Source: Rhizobiales bacterium CCH3-A5
Lineage (GTDB): Bacteria > Pseudomonadota > Alphaproteobacteria > Rhizobiales > Beijerinckiaceae
Assembly (NCBI GenBank): GCA_001556025.1
Contig: LSIB01000136.1
Coordinates: 248,001 to 312,000 of the forward strand
Direction of reading: 5' to 3'
DNA: 64,000 nt
The position numbers and the translations under genes are program-made. Below are positions 617 through 13,915 of this stretch, one piece after another. A model generated the notes under the pieces. That model had not been told where the DNA came from, did not search any database, and was given only the letters and a program-made list of their open reading frames with translations. The first letter of the stretch is position 1; each line of letters starts with the position of its first letter.

Positions 617-1378
617 TCAGCTCTCTAGAACGGCGTACACATCGCCTGAATTAGCGTCATGCGGCAAGGCGCGCAGAAATTCGCCCATGGCCTCGGCGCT
701 CGCATTGCCAGCAAGCTCGAACCTCTGGCTCTCGCCGAGCGCGACGTTGAAGCGGTAGGGACCGAGCGTGTCCAGCAAGGCGAGGCAGGCCTCGGCCACA
801 TCGCGCTGGATTGTGGTGAACTCGAAGGAGATCACCGGGATCGCCCTCGTAAGCCCAGCCAGCACATGCGCCTCGAAGCCCTCGACGTCGATCTTGGCCA
901 GCACCGGCAGGCCATGGCGCAGGATCAGCGCGTCGAGCGTGGTGCAGGGCACGACGATCTCGCGGTCCCAGACCTGTTCGGCCCAGCCCTGCGCCCCCTT
1001 CGCCGCGCCGACGAAGGCGTCCGACGCGGTCGAGACCGTCGGGTTGGCGCTGTTGATCCTGAGGGTGAGCGAGCCCTCGCTGTCGCCACAGGCGGCCTCG
1101 ATCAGCGTCACATCGGGGTCGCGGCCATGGATCAGGCGGATCGCCCGCGCCGGCCCCGGCTGCGGCTCCAGCGCGACGACGCGCGCGCCTAGCCGCCGGA
1201 AGGAGGAGATCCGGTCGCCGACATGCGAACCGATGTCGAAGGCGAGATCGCGGGGCTTGAGAAAGCGGCCATAAAGCGCGTCCATGGCGGCATTGCGCGC
1301 CGCGTCGCCGTGATAGACCCGCAAGCTGCGCGACAGCGCCTTCGCCGTCCCTTTCGGATAGGCGACCGGCGCGCTCAT
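617..1378 (-). CDS. FkbM family SAM-dependent methyltransferase
   Basis: Predicted 253-residue FkbM-type methyltransferase. The SAM-binding motif I is LAFDIGSHVGDRISSF near residues 42-57, followed by VVALEPQPG as the acidic motif II, and the family hallmark AKIDVEGFEAHVLAG lies in the C-terminal half. FkbM enzymes O-methylate sugars or polyketide hydroxyls; the acceptor here is unknown. The ATG at 1378 overlaps the opgH stop in an ATGA arrangement, so the two are almost certainly co-translated. That suggests, without proving it, that the methyl acceptor is the glucan or a lipid-linked product made by OpgH. A longer in-frame reading upstream only runs antisense-like through opgH and was not used. 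Confidence 0.88.
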   Translation of the reverse strand: MSAPVAYPKGTAKALSRSLRVYHGDAARNAAMDALYGRFLKPRDLAFDIGSHVGDRISSFRRLGARVVALEPQPGPARAIRLIHGRDPDVTLIEAACGDSEGSLTLRINSANPTVSTASDAFVGAAKGAQGWAEQVWDREIVVPCTTLDALILRHGLPVLAKIDVEGFEAHVLAGLTRAIPVISFEFTTIQRDVAEACLALLDTLGPYRFNVALGESQRFELAGNASAEAMGEFLRALPHDANSGDVYAVLES

Positions 1379-3201
1379 GCCCGCGTCCCGGCGCCGATGG
1401 CCCGCAGGACGGGCGGCGGGTCGAAATCCTCGGGGATGCCGCAGAGCCCGCTGCGAGCGAACCAGCGCCCGACGCCCGGCAGCGCGGTCAGCATGGCGAA
1501 GGGAATCGCCAGCACATAGCCCGCCGTCAACGGCAGCGACCAGAGCAGCACGGTCGGCGAGAGCCAGAGCAGCGTCCCGAAAACATAGAGACCGAACAGG
1601 AGGTGCGGCCACAGGCCCGCGAAAGCAGTGGCGAATGAGAGCGCATGGGCATCGCGCGCCTGCCCGTTCCAGCCGATCTTCGCGCGCCCGAAAGCCAGAC
1701 CGATCATGAACAGCGTGGTCCGGAAGGTCGAGACCGCGCCCTGCAGGAAGGCGAAGACCACCTCGATCACTGACGACGCGATGAAGCGCCCCGTTCCGCC
1801 ATAGCGATTGGTTCCGCCCTTGGTCAGCAGGATGTCGGCGAACCCCGCCAGCTTGGGCGAAAGATACATCGAGAAGAACAGCACATAGAGAAACGCCGCG
1901 AGCCCCGACGGATAGCCGGCGATGCCGGCGTCCTCGATCACCTTGACCGGCAGAAGCGCGATCATCAGCGTCCAGGCCGGCAGGCCAAGGAACATCAGGA
2001 TCGCCCAGACGAGCTGGAAGCGGCTCATCGGCTTGAGGCCCGGCAGATCGAGCAGCTTGAGGTACTGCAGGTTGCCGAGGCACCAGCGCAGGTCGCGCTT
2101 GGCGAAGTCGAGCATGGTCGGCGGGTTCTCTTCCCAGCTTCCCATCTCGGTCGGCAGCACGCGGACCTCGTAGCCGGCGCGGCGCATCAGCGTCGCCTCG
2201 ACCTGGTCGTGGCTCATCACCGCCCCGCCCAAAGGCGGACCGCCCGGCAGCACCGGCAGATGGCACTCGTCGCGGAAGGGCTTGATGCGGACGCAGGCAT
2301 TATGGCCCCAGAACGGCCCGCATTCGCCGATCCACCAGGCCGAGCCCATGGTGTAGGGCCGCATGCCGTGGCGCATGCCGAACTGGAAGATGCGCGCGAA
2401 GGCCGACTGGCTCGGCATACCGACGACCAGACTCTGCAGGATGCCGAGCTTCGGATGCGCCTGCATCATCCGGGTGAGCTTCACGATCGCCTCGCCCGAC
2501 ATCACACTGTCGGCGTCGAGCGGCAGCATGACCTCGTAGCGGTCGCCCCAGCGCTCGCAGAATTCGCGGACATTGCCGGCCTTGAAGCCGGCATTGTCGG
2601 TGCGGCGGCGATAGGTCAGGTGCGAGGCCTCCCCCAGTTCGCGCGCCCACTGCGCCGCCAGCACCTCCTCTGAGGCCGCCACGACCGGGTCGTTGGTGTC
2701 CGACAGCACGAAATAGTCGAACCAGGCGCCCTCGCCCGTCGCATCGACGCTTTCCTTGACGACACGCAGGCGGGCGAAGGCGCGGCCCGGGTCCTCGTTG
2801 CGCAGCGTCATCAGGATCGCGGTGCGGATCGCAACCGGCGTTTCGACATCGCCATCGGCAGAGAAGGGCGCGACCTGCTCGATGCCGTCCCTGACGCCAT
2901 GCAGCAGCCAAAGCCCGATCACGGCGTTCCAGAAGCCGAGCACCGTCCACGGCGCGCCGAACAGGAAGGCGACGAAGATCACCACGTCCGTGACGGTCCA
3001 GCCGCCCGCACCGAGCACGCGCGAGAGGCCAAGCAGCAGCGCGCCAAGCGTGACGAGGTTCACCGCCAGCACGAGCCAGCGTCTCGCGCTCAGGGTCGCG
3101 ACGGCCTGCACCGCGGCCGGCGTCAGCCCATTCTTGCCCCCTTGCGCACCCGGCTTGAACGTGGTCGGAGCGGGACGCTGGTTCATGGCGGTTTCTGTCA
3201 T
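1375..3201 (-). CDS. opgH: Glucans biosynthesis glucosyltransferase OpgH (MdoH)
   Basis: A 608-residue inner-membrane family 2 glucosyltransferase expected to polymerise UDP-glucose into osmoregulated periplasmic glucan. Two N-terminal membrane segments (about residues 40-62 and 70-100) precede the cytosolic GT domain. That domain has the acidic motif LPLDADSVM (D229, D231), the conserved stretch ending GPFWGHNACVR, and RDLRWCLGNLQY (R372, W373), which matches the Q/RxxRW acceptor motif. Several further membrane segments follow. It is shorter than the E. coli protein (about 850 residues) because it lacks the long N-terminal extension, as in many alphaproteobacteria. No opgG partner is next to it. 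The start is ATG 3201; ATG 3186 is an alternative. Only 27 bases separate it from the divergent gene. Confidence 0.93.
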   Translation of the reverse strand: MTETAMNQRPAPTTFKPGAQGGKNGLTPAAVQAVATLSARRWLVLAVNLVTLGALLLGLSRVLGAGGWTVTDVVIFVAFLFGAPWTVLGFWNAVIGLWLLHGVRDGIEQVAPFSADGDVETPVAIRTAILMTLRNEDPGRAFARLRVVKESVDATGEGAWFDYFVLSDTNDPVVAASEEVLAAQWARELGEASHLTYRRRTDNAGFKAGNVREFCERWGDRYEVMLPLDADSVMSGEAIVKLTRMMQAHPKLGILQSLVVGMPSQSAFARIFQFGMRHGMRPYTMGSAWWIGECGPFWGHNACVRIKPFRDECHLPVLPGGPPLGGAVMSHDQVEATLMRRAGYEVRVLPTEMGSWEENPPTMLDFAKRDLRWCLGNLQYLKLLDLPGLKPMSRFQLVWAILMFLGLPAWTLMIALLPVKVIEDAGIAGYPSGLAAFLYVLFFSMYLSPKLAGFADILLTKGGTNRYGGTGRFIASSVIEVVFAFLQGAVSTFRTTLFMIGLAFGRAKIGWNGQARDAHALSFATAFAGLWPHLLFGLYVFGTLLWLSPTVLLWSLPLTAGYVLAIPFAMLTALPGVGRWFARSGLCGIPEDFDPPPVLRAIGAGTRA

Positions 3202-3228: not shown

Positions 3229-4239
3229 ATGGCGCGAAAGCTAAAGCCGGCAAGTGCCGAGGGCGCAAGGCCGCCGGCGACCGCGCTCTGGTATGCGGGG
3301 ATGCGTGAATGCGCCCTGAACGCGGTGGCGCTGCCGCAGCCCGGCCACGATGACTGCCTCGTGCGCACGCTCTGGAGCGGCATCAGCCGCGGCACGGAGC
3401 GCCTGGTTTTCGAGGGCCGCGTGCCGTTGAGCGAGCGGGAACGGATGCGCGCGCCGTTCCAGGAGGGCGATTTCCCGTTTCCGGTGAAGTACGGCTACTG
3501 CGCGGTGGGCAAGGTCGAGTCCGGCCCGGCCGACATGCTGGGCAGGACCGTGTTTTGCCTGCACCCGCATCAGGATGTCTTCGTCGCGGCCCGCGACCGG
3601 CTGACGCCCGTCCCCGATGCCGTGCCGGCGCGCCGGGCCGTGCTCGCCGCCAACATGGAAACCGCACTGAACGCGCATTGGGATGCGGGCTCGGGCCCGG
3701 CCGACCGGATCGTGGTCGTCGGCGGCGGGGTTCTGGGCCTGCTCGTCGCCTGGCTGGCGGCGCGGCTTCCTGGCGCGCAGGTGACGCTGGTCGATGTCGC
3801 GCCCGAGCGGGCCGAACTCGCGGCCACGCTGGGCATTGGCTTCGCTTTGCCGGCGAACGCCCCGACTGACGCCGATCTCGTCTTCCACGCCAGCGCCAGC
3901 GCGCCGGGGCTCGCGACCGCTATCGGCTGCGCCGGCCTCGAGGCGAGGATCGTCGAGTTGAGCTGGTATGGCGAAGGCGCGGTCGCGGCCCCACTCGGCG
4001 GCGCATTCCACGCCAGGCGTCTGCAGTTGGTCTCCTCGCAGGTCGGCATGCTCTCGCCCTCGCGCCGGCCGCGCTGGAATTATGCAAGGCGTGCCCAGGC
4101 GGCGCTGGCGTTGCTTGCCGAGGATGATCGACTCGACCGACTGATCACGCAGGACATCGCATTCGCGGATGCGCCGGCGATCCTTCCCGACGTGCTTTCG
4201 GCCCAGTGGCGTGGGCTGACCGCCGTTCTGCGCTATTGA
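3229..4239 (+). CDS. Medium-chain alcohol-dehydrogenase-like oxidoreductase (zinc-binding ADH superfamily)
   Basis: A 336-residue medium-chain dehydrogenase-like protein. The Rossmann motif IVVVGGGVLGLLVAW lies near residue 160 and is followed by VTLVDVAPERAELAATLG, typical of NAD(P) binding. The N-terminal catalytic fold is recognisable (VRTLWSGISRGTERLVFEGRVP), resembling the BchC-like branch of the superfamily. The usual catalytic-zinc Cys in that segment is replaced by Ser-Ile-Ser, and the four-Cys structural zinc lobe is absent, so zinc dependence is doubtful. The start at ATG 3229 gives the N-terminus expected before the TALWYAG beta strand. It heads the rightward set with the pterin-synthase homologue, glycosyltransferase and methyltransferase, so it probably reduces or oxidises an intermediate of that pathway. 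Confidence 0.8.
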   Translation: MARKLKPASAEGARPPATALWYAGMRECALNAVALPQPGHDDCLVRTLWSGISRGTERLVFEGRVPLSERERMRAPFQEGDFPFPVKYGYCAVGKVESGPADMLGRTVFCLHPHQDVFVAARDRLTPVPDAVPARRAVLAANMETALNAHWDAGSGPADRIVVVGGGVLGLLVAWLAARLPGAQVTLVDVAPERAELAATLGIGFALPANAPTDADLVFHASASAPGLATAIGCAGLEARIVELSWYGEGAVAAPLGGAFHARRLQLVSSQVGMLSPSRRPRWNYARRAQAALALLAEDDRLDRLITQDIAFADAPAILPDVLSAQWRGLTAVLRY

Positions 4240-4251
4240 CCTGACGCTGCG

Positions 4252-4265
4252 GTCTTGGCCAAGAC
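4252..4265. promoter_or_regulatory. 14-bp perfect palindrome in the gap before the pterin-synthase homologue
   Basis: GTCTTGGCCAAGAC is its own reverse complement. It sits in the 71-base gap between the oxidoreductase stop and the ATG at 4311. It could be an operator for an internal promoter or simply a short structured spacer. No regulator is identified. Confidence 0.35.
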
Positions 4266-4310
4266 AGGGCTCTGAGCCGGCGGCCGCCAGCGCACAGGAG
4301 CCATAAGCCC

Positions 4311-4712
4311 ATGTTTTCCGTCGAAGTCCGCGATCGCATCATGATCGGCCATTCTTTGCCCGATCCGTTCTTCGGCCCCGCCCAGAACATGCACGGCGCG
4401 ACCTTCGTGGTCGACGTCGCATTCTTTCGCGAAGAGATGACGCGCCAGAACGTGGTGGTCGATATCGGGGCGGCACTCGACGTGCTCAACAAGACCCTCA
4501 AGCCATTGAACTACCAGAATCTCGACACGCTGCCGCAGTTCAAAGGCGTGCTGACCACCACCGAATTCCTGTGCAAATACATCTTCGACGCGATGGCGCA
4601 GGCTGCCAAGTCCGGCGCGCTCGGCGCGGACGGTGCAGGCCTGGCGAAAATCCGGGTGACGCTGCACGAAACCGATCTGGCGCGTGCGAGCTATGAGGGC
4701 GCGCTCGCGTGA
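4311..4712 (+). CDS. 6-pyruvoyltetrahydropterin synthase / QueD family homologue with altered metal site
   Basis: A 133-residue COG0720-type T-fold protein. The first zinc-ligand position is kept (H14 in RIMIGHSL), and the C-terminal strand with the substrate-binding Glu is kept (VTLHETDLARASYEG). The central motif, normally CxxxHGH, reads AQNMHGA: the catalytic Cys position is Ala24 and the third zinc ligand is Ala30, with only H28 retained. The protein is therefore unlikely to be ordinary QueD or PTPS and may act differently on a pterin or may not bind zinc. The family is known to be functionally diverse. AGGAG precedes ATG 4311. It overlaps the next gene by 4 bases, so it is translationally coupled to the glycosyltransferase. 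Confidence 0.82.
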   Translation: MFSVEVRDRIMIGHSLPDPFFGPAQNMHGATFVVDVAFFREEMTRQNVVVDIGAALDVLNKTLKPLNYQNLDTLPQFKGVLTTTEFLCKYIFDAMAQAAKSGALGADGAGLAKIRVTLHETDLARASYEGALA

Positions 4713-5755
4713 GCGAGATCGTCTTCGCGATTCCAGGCGATCTCGCGCTGCCGACCGGCGGTTATGCCTACGACCGCAGGCTGCTGGCGGAATGGCGGGC
4801 TTCGGGCGTCTTGGCGCGCCATCTCGCCTTGCCCGGCTCATTCCCCGATCCGACACCTGACGACCTCATGGAGACAGGCCGCGCGATCCTGTCGCAGCCT
4901 TTCGACTGCGCCCTCCTGATCGACGGGCTGGCCTACGGCGCTTTCCCCGAGAGCATTGCAGCGGGGCTGGCAGGACGCGTCGTCGCTCTGGTCCACCACC
5001 CCCTCGGACTGGAAACGGGCCTGCCGCCGGAGCGCGCCGCCTCGCTGCTGGCGGGAGAAGCGGCCGCCTTGCGCTACGCCAGCGCCATCATCGTGACGAG
5101 CGCGACCACGAAGCGTCATCTCGTCGCCGATTTCGGCCTCGACGAAGCGCGCATCACGGTCGCTGTTCCAGGCGTGGATGCGGCTCCGAGGGCTCGCGGC
5201 AGCGGCGGTGGGGCAGTCTCGCTTCTGGCGGTCGGTTCGCTGGTGCCGCGCAAGGGCTACGACGTGCTGGTCACGGCGCTCGCGGGAATTCCCGACAGGG
5301 ATTGGCAACTCACCATCATCGGGGCCGCTGACCGGGTGCCGGCCACCACGCAGGCGCTGCGCGCGCAGATCGCGCAAGCTGGCCTCGGCGACCGGATCAC
5401 GCTCGCCGGAGCGGTCCCGGACGCGACGCTCGCCGAGACTTACGACCGCGCCGATCTCTTCGTCATGCCCTCGCTGTTCGAGGGCTATGGCATGGTGCTG
5501 ACCGAGGCGCTGGCGCGCGGACTGCCGGTCCTCTGCACCACCGGCGGAGCGGCGGCCGAGACCGTGCCGGACGGGGCGGCCGTCAAGGTCGCGCCGGGCG
5601 ATGCCGACGCCCTTGCAAAAGGGCTTGTGACGCTGATTGATGACGCGGCCCTTCGCGCGCGCCTCGGCTACGCCGCATGGGAGACCGCCGGCTCCTTGCC
5701 GCGCTGGCGCGACACGGCGGCGACCGTCGCCGAAATCTGCCGGAAGGTGATGTGA
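4709..5755 (+). CDS. Family 4 glycosyltransferase
   Basis: A 348-residue GT-B fold glycosyltransferase of the GT4/GT1 group. The C-terminal half shows the nucleotide-sugar domain: GSLVPRKGYDVLVTAL, then WQLTIIGAADR, and the EX7E donor-binding motif in EGYGMVLTEALARGLPVL. The N-terminal acceptor domain opens with FAIPGDLALPTGGYAYDRRL, which contains the Gly-rich turn usual in this family. Start is GTG 4709, overlapping the previous stop as GTGA; its own stop overlaps the next ATG. The donor and acceptor cannot be read from sequence. Tight coupling to a pterin-synthase homologue suggests glycosylation of a pterin-like molecule, comparable in principle to known bacterial pterin glycosides. Confidence 0.88.
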   Translation: MSEIVFAIPGDLALPTGGYAYDRRLLAEWRASGVLARHLALPGSFPDPTPDDLMETGRAILSQPFDCALLIDGLAYGAFPESIAAGLAGRVVALVHHPLGLETGLPPERAASLLAGEAAALRYASAIIVTSATTKRHLVADFGLDEARITVAVPGVDAAPRARGSGGGAVSLLAVGSLVPRKGYDVLVTALAGIPDRDWQLTIIGAADRVPATTQALRAQIAQAGLGDRITLAGAVPDATLAETYDRADLFVMPSLFEGYGMVLTEALARGLPVLCTTGGAAAETVPDGAAVKVAPGDADALAKGLVTLIDDAALRARLGYAAWETAGSLPRWRDTAATVAEICRKVM

Positions 5756-6594
5756 TGGGTGGCTTCTCCCCCGACTGGCTGGCCTTGCGCGAGCCTTTCG
5801 ACCACGCGGCCCGCAACCCGCAGCTGCTGGCGGCGGTCGGCGCGCAGTTCGCCGCCAAGCCGTCGATCACGGTCGTCGATCTCGGCTGCGGCGCGGGCTC
5901 CAACCTGCGCGGCACGTTCTCGGCCCTGCCACAGCGCCAGCACTGGACGCTGGTCGACTATGACGAGCGCCTGCTCGCGGCGGCGCGCGAACGCCTGACC
6001 GCGTGGGCTGACGAGTCGCGCGAGCAGGGCGAGGAACTGGTGCTGTCAAAGGCCGGCAAGGCACTCACCGTCGATTTCCGCAAGGCCGACCTGAACAAGG
6101 AGCTCGAATGGGTTCTGGGCTGGCAGCCCGACCTCGTCACCGCCGCCGCCCTGTTCGACCTTGCCTCGAAACGCTGGATCGAACGCTTCGTAGCGGCGCT
6201 GGCGAGCCAGCGCCTGCCGCTCTACACCGTGCTGACCTATGACGGTCGGGAGACCTGGAAGCCGCCGCATCCGGCCGACGCGCGCATACTGGCCGCGTTC
6301 AAGCACCATCAGCTCACCGACAAGGGGTTTGGTCCCGCAGCCGGGCCGGCCGCGACGGAGATCATGGCCGAGGCCTTCCGCAAGACGGGCTTCGCCGTCT
6401 CGACCGGCGACAGCCCGTGGCTGATCGAGGACGGCGCGGGCGCCTTCGCGAATGCGCTGACGGCAGGAATCGCCGACGCCGTGCGCGAAACCGGACATCT
6501 CGACGCCGCGACGATCGCCGACTGGCTCGAAGCGAGACGGCAATCGTCCTCGGGTCTGGTCGGCCATCACGATCTATGGGCCCGGCCGGTCTGA
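5755..6594 (+). CDS. Class I SAM-dependent methyltransferase
   Basis: A 279-residue Rossmann methyltransferase. Motif I is ITVVDLGCGAGSNLRG near residues 38-53, the acidic end of strand 2 is WTLVDYDERLLAAARERL, and the post-motif region DLVTAAALFDLASKRWIERF follows. ATG 5755 shares its first base with the glycosyltransferase stop (TGATG), so the two are coupled. The substrate is unknown. Position at the end of the oxidoreductase, pterin-synthase homologue and glycosyltransferase run suggests the last decorating step of that pathway. The 3' end stops 7 bases from the convergent cytochrome b561 gene, with no obvious terminator between them. Confidence 0.85.
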   Translation: MGGFSPDWLALREPFDHAARNPQLLAAVGAQFAAKPSITVVDLGCGAGSNLRGTFSALPQRQHWTLVDYDERLLAAARERLTAWADESREQGEELVLSKAGKALTVDFRKADLNKELEWVLGWQPDLVTAAALFDLASKRWIERFVAALASQRLPLYTVLTYDGRETWKPPHPADARILAAFKHHQLTDKGFGPAAGPAATEIMAEAFRKTGFAVSTGDSPWLIEDGAGAFANALTAGIADAVRETGHLDAATIADWLEARRQSSSGLVGHHDLWARPV

Positions 6595-6601
6595 GATCCA
6601 G

Positions 6602-7183
6602 TCAGCCCCGTTTCGGCAGCATCCGCCGCAGCACGCCGTCCTTGAGGATCAGGTGATGATGCAGCGCGGCACCTATATGGACGGCCGCGAGCGCGCCGAT
6701 CAGCCAGGCCAGCCAGCCATGCAGCGCCAGCACGCGCTTGGCGGCCGCCTCGCTGGGCGCGGCCAAGGCCGGCAAGTCGAACAGGCCGAAAATGCCGAGC
6801 GACGGATAGAGCGAGACGCCGATCCAGCCGAGCAGCGGCACGACCAGCAATAGGCCGTAGAGCAGCCAGTGGACGGTATGCGAGGCCGCCTTCTGCCACC
6901 AGAGCAGGCCGGGCTCGTCGGGCGGCGCGCCGCGCAGCAGCCGGTAGGCCAACCGCCCCGCCATCAGCCAGAGCAGCAGGAAGCCCAGGAGCTTGTGCGT
7001 GCTGTAGAGCGCGTTGGTCAGCCCGTCCCAGACATTCATGCTGTTGCCGCGATAGGTCATGGCGATGCCAAGCGGGATCATGACCAGCACGCCTGCGGCC
7101 GTAGCCCAATGCAGACGACGCGCGACCGGGCTGTAGACCCTTTGCCCAATGCCGGCTGTCGTCATCCGGTCATGGTCGTGCAT
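6602..7183 (-). CDS. Cytochrome b561 family membrane protein
   Basis: A 193-residue four-helix cytochrome b561/b-type protein. Likely haem-ligand histidines are visible in each helix region: RRLHWATAAG, LYSTHKLLGFLLLW, ASHTVHWLLYG and LALHGWLAWLIG. The C-terminal ALHHHLILKDGVLRRMLP is a typical family ending. ATG 7183 was chosen because GGGAGGATT precedes it at good spacing and the reading further upstream has no hydrophobic signal. Members transfer electrons from quinol in the inner membrane, often to periplasmic partners or superoxide. It is transcribed against the flanking genes and so splits the methyltransferase from ribA; whether it serves the neighbouring pathway is unknown. Confidence 0.88.
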   Translation of the reverse strand: MHDHDRMTTAGIGQRVYSPVARRLHWATAAGVLVMIPLGIAMTYRGNSMNVWDGLTNALYSTHKLLGFLLLWLMAGRLAYRLLRGAPPDEPGLLWWQKAASHTVHWLLYGLLLVVPLLGWIGVSLYPSLGIFGLFDLPALAAPSEAAAKRVLALHGWLAWLIGALAAVHIGAALHHHLILKDGVLRRMLPKRG

Positions 7184-7469
7184 CTGAATCCTCCCGCTTG
7201 GCTCTTCGCCGGCATCGACGGGTCCGCCGGTCGCGACCATTCATCTCGTGTTCAACGTGTCATTCCTATACGGGCCGAGGCAACAGATTGGATGGCTGCC
7301 GCTTCAGAGCCAATGCGAAGAACCGGATCGCGGTTCCACCGAGACTGGAACAGTTCCTCCGGCGATACGTTTGGTTCGGGCGGCAATCGCGCCTACATCC
7401 GGGGCGACAAGTCGCCCGTATGAGATACATTCCTCCGCCGGTTCCCGGCGCAATCTGACGGACACTGCA

Positions 7470-8597
7470 ATGCCTAAGTCGCGTACGCTGTTCGGACGCC
7501 CGGACGAGACCAGCCTTGTGACGGTCGATCGCGCGCTGGCGGAGTTCCGCTCCGGCCGCCCGGTACTGTTGCGCGACGGCGAAAAGCTGGCGCTGGCGAT
7601 GTCGGCAGAACTCGCCGACGCCGAACTCGCCGGCCGTTTGGGAGAGATTGCGGCCGGGCGTGCGCACCTCATCCTGAGCGCCGCGAGACTGCGCCGCATC
7701 GGCGCGAAGGGCCGCAGCGAAACCGGCATTTTCGCCATTCCTGTCATGGACTTGGCCCGCATCGAGATGCTGGCGCTGAAGACCGACGGCAAGATGGATG
7801 CGCCCGTTGCGCCGGCTTCCGCCATCGACGAGGCCGCGCTCGAACTGGCGCGTCTGTCGCTTGTCCTGCCGGCGATCATACTCGTGCCGGTCACGGCCGA
7901 CACCGTGGCGGGCGAGCCGCTGGTCGAGGTCGCGATCGCGGCGGTCAATGCCTTCCGTCAGGCCCAGGTCGCCTCGCTGGCGATCGTCGGCCGGGCCCCG
8001 GTTCCGCTCGAGGGCGCGCCCGAAACCGAGTTCGTCGTCTTCCGCGGCGGCGAGGGCCTGCGCGATCAGGTCGCCATCATCGTCGGCAGCCCGGACCTGT
8101 CCGAGGCGGTGCCAGTGCGCCTGCACTCGGCGTGCCTGACTGGCGATCTGTTCGGCTCGCTGAAATGTGATTGCGGCGACCAGCTCCGCGAGACGGTGCA
8201 GTGGATGGCTGAGAACCAAGGCGGCATCCTGCTCTATCTCGACCAGGAAGGTCGCGGAAACGGCATCTCGAACAAGATGCGCGCCTACAAGTTGCAGAGC
8301 CAGGGCTGGGACACTTATGACGCCGACGAGGTGCTCGGCTTTGATCTCGACCAGCGCCATTTCGACTTCGCCGCCGCGATGCTCAAGCAGCTCGGCGTCA
8401 GCCGGGTCACGGCGCTGACCAACAACCCGATCAAGGTCGGCGCCATCAAGGCCGCCGGGCTGGAGGTCGCGGCCACCCAGCGCGTGTTGGGCCGGCCCAA
8501 CGTCCACAATGTTCGCTACCTCGCCTCCAAGCGTGACCGCGCCGGCCACGCTATCGACATGGAAGCGCTGATGGCGCGGGCCGCGCCGAAGGACTGA
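7470..8597 (+). CDS. ribA: GTP cyclohydrolase II with degenerate N-terminal DHBP-synthase-like region
   Basis: A 375-residue protein. The C-terminal half is a full GTP cyclohydrolase II: the zinc Cys triad in CLTGDLFGSLKCDCG, then LYLDQEGRGNGISNKMRAYKLQ, YDADEVLGFDLDQR and TNNPIKV. It opens GTP to the pyrimidine precursor of riboflavin. The first 180 or so residues align in outline with RibB-type DHBP synthase (LRDGEKLALAMSAEL) but lack the acidic DDEDRENEGDL-type active site, so that activity is probably lost. The start ATG 7470 is supported by length. The 286-base leader shows no riboswitch I recognise. Besides flavin synthesis it could feed the adjacent pterin-like pathway with a GTP-derived pyrimidine. 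Confidence 0.9.
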   Translation: MPKSRTLFGRPDETSLVTVDRALAEFRSGRPVLLRDGEKLALAMSAELADAELAGRLGEIAAGRAHLILSAARLRRIGAKGRSETGIFAIPVMDLARIEMLALKTDGKMDAPVAPASAIDEAALELARLSLVLPAIILVPVTADTVAGEPLVEVAIAAVNAFRQAQVASLAIVGRAPVPLEGAPETEFVVFRGGEGLRDQVAIIVGSPDLSEAVPVRLHSACLTGDLFGSLKCDCGDQLRETVQWMAENQGGILLYLDQEGRGNGISNKMRAYKLQSQGWDTYDADEVLGFDLDQRHFDFAAAMLKQLGVSRVTALTNNPIKVGAIKAAGLEVAATQRVLGRPNVHNVRYLASKRDRAGHAIDMEALMARAAPKD

Positions 8598-8656: not shown

Positions 8657-11017
8657 ATGGCAGCGCCTTCACAGCACGGATCGACCTCGCAACGCTGGCC
8701 TCTGGCCAGCGTTTTCGCGATCGTCTTTGTCGCCTGGTTCCTGCTCTCCTGGCCCTGGCTCTCGGGCGTCGTCACCATCCCCTGGGACGCAAAGGCGCAT
8801 TTCCACCCGCAGCTCCAGTTCCTGGCCAGCAGCTTGCACAAAGGGCTCTCGCCGTTCTGGGCGCCGTTCGTCTTCGCCGGCCAGCCGCAGGTCGCCGACC
8901 CGCAATCGCTGATCTTCTCGCCCTCCTTCGCGCTGATCGCGGCGCTGAACCCGACGCCGGATTTCCGCTGGAGCGACGGCGCGGTACTGGGGACGTTGCT
9001 TGCCGGCGCTTTCGCTATCGTCGTGCTGTTCCGCGACCGCGACTGGCATCCGGCCGGGGCAGTCGTCGCGGCTTTGTGCTTCGCCTTCGGCGCGGCGGCT
9101 GCCTGGCGCATCCAGCATGTCGGGCAGGTGCTGAGCCTCGGCTATTTTGCGATTACGCTGGCGCTGGTGGCGCGCGCGCTGGAGCGCGGATCGCTGCTCT
9201 ATGGCTTCGCGGCAGGCGTTGTCGCCGGCTTCATGGTGTTGGGACGCGACCAGGTCGCGCTGATCGGCGTCTATGTACTGGCAGGGCTCGTCATCGCGGC
9301 GATCGCGATGGCGCAGCGGCCATGGCGCGCGCTGATGGGCAGCCTTCTGCCTCTGATCGCCGGAGGCGTTGGGGCCGTCCTCGTTGCGACCTTGCCGATT
9401 CTTCTGACGGCCTTCTTCGCCGGGGACTCGAACCGGCCCGTCATAGACGTGATCGAGGCCGGCAAGGGCTCGCTGCATCCCGCCGCTTTGCTGACCGGCC
9501 TCTTCGCCAATCTCTACGGCGCGGCCGGGCCGCTGGACAATTTCTGGGGCGCGCCGAGCCCGGCCTGGGAGGCGCGCTTCGGGCCGCTCCAGCTCTACCT
9601 CGCCCGCAACATGAGCCAGCTCTATCTCGGGCTGGCCCCGATGCTGCTGATCCTCGGACTGGGCATCCTGCGCGGCGCGCTGCTGCGACGCGAGATCGTG
9701 GCGTTGAGCATGGCCGCCCTGATCGTGCTCATCTTTGCGCTCGGCCGCTACACGCCGGGCTTCCGGCTGCTCTTCGAGCTGCCGGGAATCGCCTTCTACC
9801 GCCGACCAGCCGACGCGCTTTTCATCCTCGGCGCGCTGCTGGCGCTGCTGGCGGGCTATCTCACCCATCTGGTGATGAGCGACGACGCGCCCGCGATGCG
9901 TCGCGGGCACTGGCTCGCTCTGGCTGCAACGGTGCTCGGCGCGCTCGGCCTTGCCCTCTGGCTCGCCGCCACCGTCGGCCGGCTGCATGTCGCGGCGGTC
10001 CCGCTGCTGACGGCGCTGCTCTGCGGCATCCTCAGCGCCGGCGCGCTCGTCGCCGCGCGGGGACTGAGCTTGCAGGGCTCGCCGCGCGCGGCCGCCATCG
10101 TACTGGCCGCGATGCTCACGGTTGATCTCTCGGTCAACAATGGCCCCAGCGAGTCCACCGCTTTGCCGGCACAAATGTACGAGGTCCTGCGCGCCGACAG
10201 CGCCAACGAGACCATCGCGCTGCTGAAGCGCGAGACCGCCCGCACGAAATCCCCCGACCGGCGCGACCGCATCGAACTCGCCGGCATCGACTTCCACTGG
10301 CCCAATGCCAGCCTCGTCCACGAACTCGACAATACGCTCGGCTACAACCCGCTCCGGCTCGGCCTCTACAGCAAGGCCACCGGGGCAGAAGATCATGTCG
10401 CCCTGCCCGACCAGCGCAAGTTCGCACCCCTCATGCCCGGCTATCGTTCGCTGCTCGCCGACATGCTGGGCCTGCGCTTCATCGCCACAGGCGTCCTCGC
10501 CGAGCAGATCGACAAAAGCCTGAAGCCCGGCGACCTCGTCCAGATCGCCCGGACGAAGGACGCCTATGTCTACGAGAACCCGCGCGCTTTGCCCCGCGTG
10601 CTGGTCGTCACCACCGCATTGAAGGCGGATTTCGATGCGATCCTTTCGACCGGGCAATGGCCGCAGGGCTTCGACCCGCGCAAGACAGTGCTGCTCGACC
10701 GCGAACCCCAGCAACGGCCGACAGGCCCGGCCCAACCGGGTTCCGTCAGCATCTCCGACTATGGCACCACGCAGGTGACGCTGGCGGTGGACGCCCCCCA
10801 TGGCGGCTTCGTGGTGCTCAACGATGTCTGGCATCCCTGGTGGCAGGCCGAGATCGACGGTAAGCCGGTCGAACTGCTCCGGGCGAACGTGCTGTTTCGG
10901 GCCGTCATGGTTCCGCCAGGACGCTCGACGGTGCGCTTCGTCTTTCGTCCGTTCGAGGGGCTTTACGCCGATATCGGCAGGCGTCTGAGGGCGGGGCGCG
11001 TAAAGCCGGCGGGGTGA
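8657..11017 (+). CDS. YfhO-like polytopic membrane protein
   Basis: A 786-residue integral membrane protein with about a dozen hydrophobic segments across residues 15-490, then a 270-residue C-terminal domain ending in a beta-rich stretch (GGFVVLNDVWHPWWQAEIDGKPV and the following RSTVRFVFRPF). That ending and the early loop IPWDAKAHFHPQLQFLASS with FWAPFVFAGQPQVADPQ match the YfhO family of GT-C-like proteins, thought to move lipid-linked sugars or glycosylate teichoic-type polymers in Firmicutes. Its role in this organism is unknown. It follows ribA by 59 bases on the same strand and may share its transcript. A very long antisense reading across it is a GC-codon shadow. Confidence 0.8.
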   Translation: MAAPSQHGSTSQRWPLASVFAIVFVAWFLLSWPWLSGVVTIPWDAKAHFHPQLQFLASSLHKGLSPFWAPFVFAGQPQVADPQSLIFSPSFALIAALNPTPDFRWSDGAVLGTLLAGAFAIVVLFRDRDWHPAGAVVAALCFAFGAAAAWRIQHVGQVLSLGYFAITLALVARALERGSLLYGFAAGVVAGFMVLGRDQVALIGVYVLAGLVIAAIAMAQRPWRALMGSLLPLIAGGVGAVLVATLPILLTAFFAGDSNRPVIDVIEAGKGSLHPAALLTGLFANLYGAAGPLDNFWGAPSPAWEARFGPLQLYLARNMSQLYLGLAPMLLILGLGILRGALLRREIVALSMAALIVLIFALGRYTPGFRLLFELPGIAFYRRPADALFILGALLALLAGYLTHLVMSDDAPAMRRGHWLALAATVLGALGLALWLAATVGRLHVAAVPLLTALLCGILSAGALVAARGLSLQGSPRAAAIVLAAMLTVDLSVNNGPSESTALPAQMYEVLRADSANETIALLKRETARTKSPDRRDRIELAGIDFHWPNASLVHELDNTLGYNPLRLGLYSKATGAEDHVALPDQRKFAPLMPGYRSLLADMLGLRFIATGVLAEQIDKSLKPGDLVQIARTKDAYVYENPRALPRVLVVTTALKADFDAILSTGQWPQGFDPRKTVLLDREPQQRPTGPAQPGSVSISDYGTTQVTLAVDAPHGGFVVLNDVWHPWWQAEIDGKPVELLRANVLFRAVMVPPGRSTVRFVFRPFEGLYADIGRRLRAGRVKPAG

Positions 11018-12838: not shown

Positions 12839-13915
12839 TTGTCTCTATTGGCCTCGCAGTGGCGAAACAGCGTGATCAAGCCTCACATCGGAATTCTGAA
12901 ATCTGTCTGGTCACGTGCCGCAAACGGCCAGTGGGCTATTGCGGATTTGAAAGGGATCGAGCTCCGGCCCCAAACTGGATTCCAGTCAAATTTTTTTGCT
13001 GTAGAAAGTCAGTTGGAGTTGATGACGTCCCGACCTAGCGGGAACATTACGGAATTGATGGCGTCGTTCGGTCCGACTGATTTTTTGTTAAAGCAAAGCA
13101 TTGCCCCAGTTGTCTCATGGCGAGACGGCGATAAATATATCAGAATCATAGGAACTGCTTCTGTAATTAGCTGTACTGGCTATGCTATAACTGCGGCGCA
13201 CGTACTGATGGATCCGTTTGAAGGCGATTACAGCAGCGTGAAATTTAATAAAAATAAAAGTATAATCGATGATAAATTTAATTTTGGCGTTTTGATCCCT
13301 ACTGGGCCGGGATACGGCGTCAAAGGATTTATATACTTTCCCTTCGAAAAATACTGGGTCTGGGGAAAATGGCTAGAATCGCCCTTATTCCATGAACGAG
13401 ATCGTTTTGATTACTTGACAGACCTCGCGATCTGCAAAATGCCAAACGACGCCGCGCATCAACCCTTGAGTTTGTCTTTGAACGCATTTTTACCCAATGA
13501 AACTGCATACTCGATCGGCTACGCGGAAATGGATGACATACCTGTAGAATACGGCGAGAGGGGAATGATAATTCCCGATTTCAAAGCCGATTTATACGTT
13601 TCAGTTGGCGAAGTAATGAGAGTCTTTCCAGAGAACCATCTTGATCGAGAGGTGCCAACACCTGGACCATGCTTTGATTTTCGCGCAAAGATTCCCGGAA
13701 AAATGAGTGGTGCGCCAGTTTTTGGGGCCGAAGGCGCAGTCGTTCGCGGCGTTATCAGCCGCAGTTTCTCAGGCGAACAGCATGCTTATGGCGCCATGGT
13801 TGGGCCAGCAATGCATCTCTCGCTTAATGAGCCACAGGTTTCTGGGCGCACTTTGAAGGCGCTCATGGAATCGGGTCAGGAAGGAATTGCTCGCATTCAC
13901 GGCGCGGGGCTGTAG
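12839..13915 (+). CDS. Trypsin-like serine protease, probably horizontally acquired
   Basis: A 358-residue protein read from TTG 12839; ATG 13022 is an alternative start that would still keep the whole protease domain. The catalytic triad of a trypsin-like fold is visible: H121 in GYAITAAHVL, D195 in LTDLAICKM and S290 in GKMSGAPVFG, which has the usual GxSG. There is no signal peptide and no PDZ domain, so a cytosolic role is likely. The segment is visibly AT-richer than everything around it (runs such as aatttaataaaaataaaag) and uses many AT-ending codons, which points to recent transfer. It stands alone between two ordinary GC-rich genes. Its target is unknown; stress or defence-associated proteolysis is a guess. 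Confidence 0.75.
   Translation: MSLLASQWRNSVIKPHIGILKSVWSRAANGQWAIADLKGIELRPQTGFQSNFFAVESQLELMTSRPSGNITELMASFGPTDFLLKQSIAPVVSWRDGDKYIRIIGTASVISCTGYAITAAHVLMDPFEGDYSSVKFNKNKSIIDDKFNFGVLIPTGPGYGVKGFIYFPFEKYWVWGKWLESPLFHERDRFDYLTDLAICKMPNDAAHQPLSLSLNAFLPNETAYSIGYAEMDDIPVEYGERGMIIPDFKADLYVSVGEVMRVFPENHLDREVPTPGPCFDFRAKIPGKMSGAPVFGAEGAVVRGVISRSFSGEQHAYGAMVGPAMHLSLNEPQVSGRTLKALMESGQEGIARIHGAGL

Follow-up and report, generated by a model that had tools for sequence, protein, structure and literature searches.

What does a T-fold protein do in a run of biosynthetic genes once it has lost the catalytic residues of 6-pyruvoyltetrahydropterin synthase (PTPS)? The question is raised by a locus in a 64,000-nucleotide stretch of Rhizobiales bacterium CCH3-A5 (contig LSIB01000136.1; the window, below, is this whole stretch). 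Here a gene block encodes a medium-chain dehydrogenase (ADH), the PTPS homologue, a GT4 glycosyltransferase, an S-adenosylmethionine (SAM) methyltransferase and, past an opposing cytochrome b561 gene, the GTP cyclohydrolase II RibA. Our best reading, held with moderate confidence, is that the block forms the producing half of an envelope system in two parts, and that its product is a GTP-derived, pyrimidine- or pterin-like compound that carries a sugar and a methyl group and serves in the envelope. The observations that carry it are that the identified genes are inherited together, that the GT4 and the methyltransferase are fused in some genomes, and that an importer, with this GT4 and these membrane genes next to it, stands in the block's place.

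Conservation of the block and its PTPS homologue

In 81 loci fetched with the PTPS homologue (the best 80 of 253 genome-contig matches and one from G001, the nearest genome used for comparison; mostly Bosea kin, some broken off at contig ends), we find the GT4 in 80, the methyltransferase in 77, the ADH in 74, the glucosyltransferase MdoH in 69, an FkbM-family methyltransferase in 64, cytochrome b561 in 55, RibA in 48 and a YfhO-like gene in 44. Because many of these loci are close kin, we searched more widely, in 397 genomes sampled evenly from Pseudomonadota. These profile searches score the best 5-10 first-look candidates of each genome, and absences hold at that depth. The PTPS-subfamily profile finds 32 of the 397 genomes at 182-228 bits, with all remaining matches at 46 bits or less, and the ADH subfamily (at least 346 bits; next match 153 bits) is found in the identical 32. 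A RibD-type subfamily (at least 272 bits) occurs in 28 genomes, every one within the 32; G001 and G329, which are Bosea kin, lack it, as do G339 and G087, the last with a contig that ends shortly past the block. A CDP-alcohol phosphatidyltransferase subfamily (at least 175 bits) occurs in 22 genomes, 17 of them PTPS-positive. When we count genes locally, in stretches of 12.5-19.5 kb from the PTPS-positive genomes minus G001 (31 loci), the ADH is present in 31, the GT4 in 30, the methyltransferase in 29, the RibD-type gene in 27, the CDP-alcohol transferase in 15, a flippase in 14, MdoH and RibA in 13 each, FkbM in 10, b561 and a creatininase-family gene in 7 each, a sulfatase-fold gene in 6 and the YfhO-like gene in 2. 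The RibA of G329 lies 14.5 kb from its PTPS gene, beyond the stretch counted.

The block is thus a widely conserved unit, in which the pairing of ADH and PTPS is beyond chance. Pairwise distances of PTPS, ADH, GT4 and methyltransferase correlate (rho 0.49-0.69 over 39 loci; 0 of 300 permutations as high), which is joint inheritance, in a pattern that is not told apart from species history. The permutation value, like the Fisher values for shared presence in the genomes, takes no account of relatedness. The GT4 and the methyltransferase belong together, since they form one open frame of 633-655 residues in 6 of the 31 loci (L142, L147, L148, L149, L151, L153). The block is also found in Actinomycetota (Streptomyces fungicidicus and Microbacterium records), in Thiodictyon, and on plasmids of Methylosinus, Agrobacterium and Palleronia, the last with its GT4 about 4 kb away from the block. 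The first-pass annotation had proposed a pathway for a decorated pterin-like compound and had set against it the case that the genes seldom travel together. The gene-neighbourhood search on the PTPS homologue finds them together far outside Bosea, and that case fails because the block is kept in distant genomes. In one genome (G017, L199), RibD, FkbM, CDP-alcohol transferase and MdoH genes cluster about 60 kb from the block, so the system can be divided over two loci.

The best solved relative of the window's PTPS homologue is SCO6650 of Streptomyces coelicolor (PDB 3d7j; 137 bits, 2.9e-39, residues 1-132); the human PTPS 1b66 scores 22 bits. The zinc motif HGH of 1b66 reads HGA in the window and in all 15 aligned rows, and the catalytic Asp-His (LDH in 1b66) reads Asn-Tyr (LNY) in the window. 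With these catalytic residues lost, an ordinary QueD or biopterin PTPS is ruled out. The protein falls below the curated scores for QueD (31.9 against 89.25 bits) and 6PTHBS (29 against 125.5) and passes that of the T-fold family (PF01242, 75.9 bits, cut-off 22.4). Thr84-Glu85 and Glu120 are invariant in the 15 rows, and Glu120 we take to be the residue that anchors the pterin or 2-amino-4-oxo ring. Full-length similarity and the same lost residues, shared by Streptomyces rows, place the protein in the SCO6650 type. The 3d7j study reportedly describes a T-fold lacking zinc, the catalytic triad and PTPS activity, and we know of no pathway assigned to SCO6650. The alteration of the active site that the first-pass annotation had noted is therefore real, while its novelty does not stand, since orphan SCO6650, with its solved structure, is of the same type.

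The nearest named records of the window's PTPS homologue are a Beijerinckiaceae metagenome-assembled genome (98%), then Bosea species. In G001, the block's copy is the sole PTPS/QueD-family gene found, and a separate QueD is not seen there. Against a role in 7-deazapurine synthesis, no QueE or QueC product names are seen in the annotated neighbourhoods (the plasmid annotation is incomplete, and no further search was made). As far as its main text goes, a study of COG0720 annotation (PMC5041015) gives functions for PTPS-I to III and defines class IV by motif; the words 'riboflavin' and 'glycosyl' are absent from that main text. For the ADH, a BchC identity is ruled out (54 bits against a curated cut-off of 291), and structure comparison of the methyltransferase and the dehydrogenase returns general folds only.

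An importer in place of the block

These genes are repeatedly accompanied by a membrane module: cytochrome b561, CDP-alcohol phosphatidyltransferase, flippase, sulfatase-fold protein, FkbM and MdoH. The CDP-alcohol transferase keeps the residues of what we take to be its family motif, the flippase-like gene matches the membrane region of lysylphosphatidylglycerol synthase, and the sulfatase-fold gene matches PF00884 (L200, L204). The five PTPS-negative genomes with a CDP-alcohol transferase all belong to one family, f17, presumably within Rhodobacterales, in which 39 of 296 genomes are positive for the transferase profile. We describe 42 f17 loci (36 new, that of G180, and the five earlier ones), fetched by the transferase, so that loci without it are uncounted. 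The transferase is present in all 42, the sulfatase-fold gene in 38, the flippase in 35, the GT4 in 31, b561 in 29, MdoH in 11 and FkbM in 10. Among the same loci, 22 carry an ATP-binding cassette (ABC) importer and 8 the PTPS block; none carries both, and 12 carry neither. The importer consists of an NMT1/THI5-like binding protein, identified by Pfam in four loci and by similarity elsewhere, and a permease (L200-L203, L210-L212, L214, L215, L217, L220, L222, L226, L227, L231, L234, L235, L238-L240, L242, L243). When we restrict the count to the 31 f17 loci with the GT4, the importer is present in 21, the block in 8, both in none and neither in two. One of those two is L204, whose genome (G288) has the block on another contig, and the other is L218, a 12-kb stretch of a 12.8-kb contig. 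Genome-wide, the importer's binding protein reaches at least 508 bits in all five of the PTPS-negative genomes and in none of the 32 PTPS-positive ones (three have matches of 110 bits or less).

Because block and importer are mutually exclusive at loci with the same GT4 and membrane genes, they appear to supply the same thing, and the GT4 probably draws on a compound that the cell either makes through the block or takes up. With RibA and a reductase in the block, the simplest reading suggests that the compound supplied is a GTP-derived diaminopyrimidine or pterin. A GT4 that stands without the block, next to the importer and the membrane genes, points to a role in the envelope. In a tree of the sulfatase-fold protein (38 rows, L204 scored as block), the block label changes 5 times and the importer label 9 times, with 5 and 5 changes forced by well-supported branches. 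The block's methyltransferase is not found in the PTPS-negative loci L200-L203.

The GT4 itself is not confined to the block. Against PDB, the block-GT4 profile finds 6kih at 136 bits and the MshA-type structures 3c4q and 3c48 at 121 bits, and against the same profile the GT4s of the first five PTPS-negative f17 loci score 333-387 bits. The idea of a block-only gene is thus ruled out. A gene of the inositol-monophosphatase family is present in 5 of the 8 block loci of f17 and in 0 of the 21 importer loci with the GT4 (L211, an importer locus without the GT4, has one); it would fit that this enzyme removes a phosphate absent from the imported compound. Another set of f17 loci (L219, L221, L223, L225, L228, L230, L236, L241) has the transferase and the sulfatase-fold gene, mostly with the flippase, and no GT4, block or importer; these eight may represent an earlier or a distinct version of the module.

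A likely GTP-derived precursor

The window's RibA passes its curated score and keeps the zinc-cysteine motif CDCG and the switch-tyrosine motif RAY, as predicted for a GTP cyclohydrolase II. In 20 of the 32 PTPS-positive genomes we compared copy numbers. Five of the 20 (G342, G051, G261, G255, G375) have a long RibA inside the block and a short RibA elsewhere. In the window's order, the long RibA occurs in 9 of 11 PTPS-positive genomes and in 1 of the 23 PTPS-negative genomes tested; 20 of these 23 have no match above 36 bits, G316 and G204 have matches of about 130 bits, and the remaining genome, G364, is the one with the long form. There (L197, 9075-10142) it is 61% identical, with no PTPS block in the genome and none of the block's other genes nearby. 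Second copies and rarity in block-negative relatives argue that RibA tracks the block more than the need for riboflavin.

The RibD-type protein has the reductase domain only (PF01872), with no deaminase domain. Its profile finds in PDB the diaminopyrimidine ribosyl phosphate reductase 6p8c at 147 bits and 2azn at 141 bits, ahead of bifunctional bacterial RibD at 125 bits or less. Reduction ahead of deamination would retain the 2-amino group of a pterin. Because RibA tracks the block and a reductase of the type that acts on its product is present in 27 of the 31 loci, the precursor probably derives from GTP. Neither a riboflavin synthase nor a lumazine synthase is seen in the annotated neighbourhoods. 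Of the pathway proposed in the first-pass annotation, the joint travel of the genes and the likely GTP origin stand, while the PTPS type is already known and the GT4 also occurs outside the block; a pterin or pterin glycoside as the product, and a role for it as cofactor, photoreceptor ligand or signal, are conjectural.

One other covariation was considered and set aside. In S. fungicidicus, the block's RibA has Met in place of the RAY tyrosine and a creatininase-family gene adjoins it; SCO6655, with Met at that site, presumably stops at the formylated intermediate. Tyr-type RibA and creatininase occur together in five other loci (L139, L142, L144, L147, L148), the Met form with creatininase is seen in S. 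fungicidicus only, and the pairing is not strict, so we do not use it as proof. PMC9478397 describes a Sinorhizobium creatininase-family protein that removes the formyl group after GTP opening.

The window locus, the proposed pathway and its alternatives

In Table 1, we collect the features of the window. The five genes lie where they were first placed, all on the forward strand with b561 opposing, and their coordinates and start codons hold on checking. The 1-4-base overlaps of the middle three are borne out as well, with 4 bases shared by PTPS and GT4, and 4 or 1 by GT4 and methyltransferase according to which methyltransferase start is used; the gap between ADH and PTPS is 71 bases. The limits first drawn were too narrow, since MdoH, FkbM and b561 recur nearby in the 81 PTPS-fetched loci, and the opposing b561 gene is probably part of the system. 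The ATG of FkbM overlaps the MdoH stop by 4 bases. Further along, at 12839-13915, the window encodes a protein with a trypsin-like peptidase domain (PF13365) that shows no clear connection with the block.

Table 1. Genes of the block and its surroundings in the window.
Feature	Position	Strand	Match	Remark
FkbM-family methyltransferase	617-1378	-	TIGR01444, 73.5 bits (cut-off 37.7)	
MdoH periplasmic-glucan glucosyltransferase	1375-3201	-	NF003963, 915 bits (cut-off 884)	divergent from ADH
Medium-chain dehydrogenase (ADH)	3229-4239	+		distantly BchC-like; partner of PTPS homologue
T-fold PTPS homologue, SCO6650 type	4311-4712	+	137 bits to 3d7j; PF01242	
GT4 glycosyltransferase	4709-5755	+	PF00534, 112 bits	
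Class I SAM methyltransferase	5752 (GTG) or 5755 (ATG) to 6594	+		
Cytochrome b561	6602-7240	-	PF01292, 94.8 bits	between methyltransferase and RibA
GTP cyclohydrolase II RibA	7470 (ATG)-8597	+	PRK08815, 495 bits (cut-off 464)	extra N-terminal domain
Large membrane protein, weakly YfhO-like	8657-11017	+	PF09586, 25.5 bits (below cut-off 28.5)	possible member

We infer the following reactions. RibA would open GTP to the 2,5-diaminopyrimidine ribosyl phosphate, and in most lineages, Bosea excepted, the reductase-only RibD protein would convert the ribosyl to a ribityl group. The T-fold PTPS homologue, its PTPS chemistry lost and its ring-anchoring residue kept, may then shape a pterin-like compound together with the ADH. 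The GT4 would attach a sugar and the methyltransferase a methyl group, and the product would be handed to the membrane module described above. A role shared by MdoH and the block is what their neighbourhood points to. Because MdoH is present in the window and the enzymes of the module resemble those of glucan head-group transfer, an envelope-attached product is plausible by analogy, and b561 suggests redox chemistry. A bolder version, which we regard as speculative and on balance unlikely, is that the CDP-alcohol transferase, flippase and sulfatase-fold protein would join a glycosylated ribityl-pteridine, made by many bacteria and imported by others, to a lipid or periplasmic glucan. This compound would exchange electrons with the membrane through b561, as a shared anchored redox cofactor of the envelope and of a new kind.

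Several observations weigh against a glycosylated GTP-derived product of the block. Bosea kin have neither the cluster RibD nor the CDP-alcohol transferase, so the window lacks two of the steps; because these genes are missing there, the product of Bosea kin or its attachment may differ (b561, MdoH, FkbM and the weakly YfhO-like protein are retained). The RibD-type protein scores 109 bits against the curated archaeal reductase model, below the cut-off of 186, and G347 and G339 have the block and no canonical RibA. Ten of the 42 f17 loci have no GT4, block or importer. In the GT4 tree, which is less resolved, the block label changes 4 times and the importer label 5 times, with 1 and 1 forced, so repeated replacement of block and importer is supported by the sulfatase-fold tree and left open by the GT4 tree. 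The GT4, present without the block, may not act on the block's product. On two Streptomyces plasmids the PTPS gene stands by itself (L087, 9001-9426; L088, 9001-9399), without ADH, GT4 or methyltransferase and in one case near MEKHLA/PAS, cupin and metallo-beta-lactamase-fold genes, so that the protein may have another use there. Finally, the nearest genome has no canonical RibA besides the window-type one, which could thus be needed for riboflavin: the cyclohydrolase domain of its RibB-type gene is degenerate and lacks CxCG, and two further matches reach just 25 and 21 bits.

The strongest alternative, although we judge it unlikely, is that the product of the GT4 and the membrane genes would be a polyol-phosphate lipid bearing a sugar, or a decoration on a glucan (inositol- or ribitol-like), for which the block supplies a helper or head group, and no pterin is glycosylated. 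The GT4 is closest to MshA-type enzymes, which use inositol phosphate, 21 importer loci have it with the membrane genes and no block, the CDP-alcohol transferase shows a weak likeness to enzymes that use polyol phosphates, and MdoH and FkbM adjoin the block. The inositol-monophosphatase-family gene cuts both ways, with its presence in 5 of 8 block loci and its absence from the 21 importer loci with the GT4. What ties the GT4 to the block instead is its fusion, in 6 of 31 loci, with the block's methyltransferase, together with the methyltransferase not being found in L200-L203. We give less weight to a PTPS homologue that acts as a pterin binder or carrier and not as an enzyme, with the block making or sensing a ligand by means of it. 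Lost catalytic residues beside a kept anchor residue would suit a binder, and so would the lone plasmid genes, one of them beside the MEKHLA/PAS, cupin and metallo-beta-lactamase-fold genes, but the same dehydrogenase accompanies the protein in 32 of 32 genomes, along with the transferases, as for a biosynthetic enzyme. Equally improbable is that RibA is merely the riboflavin gene of Bosea and that the product of the other four genes is not GTP-derived. In favour of this, RibA is the only canonical GTP cyclohydrolase II in the nearest genome, is parted from the other genes by b561 and is near the block in just 13 of 31 loci. Against it, five genomes from other classes have RibA in the block as a second copy, 20 of the order's 23 block-negative genomes give no match above 36 bits, and the RibD-type reductase indicates the same intermediate.

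The block and its putative GTP-derived compound relate to several known systems. SCO6650 belongs to the same subfamily and has the same lost residues as the window's PTPS homologue, and a related gene of S. fungicidicus sits in the same block. Riboflavin synthesis, with its GTP cyclohydrolase II, FAPy formamidase and diaminopyrimidine reductase, is matched here by RibA, by a RibD-type reductase and at some loci by a gene of the creatininase family, and differs in that the reductase here lacks the deaminase domain and a second RibA is found elsewhere in five genomes. The synthesis of bacterial pterin glycosides (of biopterin and cyanopterin) shares with the block a PTPS homologue, a glycosyltransferase and, as a theme, an origin from GTP, whereas here the PTPS homologue has no catalytic residues and RibA stands for GTP cyclohydrolase I. 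In osmoregulated periplasmic glucan synthesis, lipid enzymes and a sulfatase-fold enzyme shift a phospho-head group from lipid to the periplasmic glucan made by MdoH; the window has a true MdoH, by its curated score, and loci elsewhere have lipid enzymes and a sulfatase-fold gene, while we know of no counterpart there for a GTP-related block or for an importer that replaces it. No description of the pathway was found in searches of an open-licence library, although one may have appeared in earlier or subscription literature. The PTPS type is known, and the pathway would be a variant of GTP-derived pteridine- or flavin-like biosynthesis.

The natural GT4-methyltransferase fusion and the importer's binding protein offer handles for catching the compound. 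The orphan SCO6650-type PTPS gains a pathway, and the extra RibA of several genomes finds an explanation. That the block is kept in Alphaproteobacteria, in other classes of the phylum and in Actinomycetota, with an importer replacing it in some genomes, speaks for a real compound that its bearers value and probably exchange.

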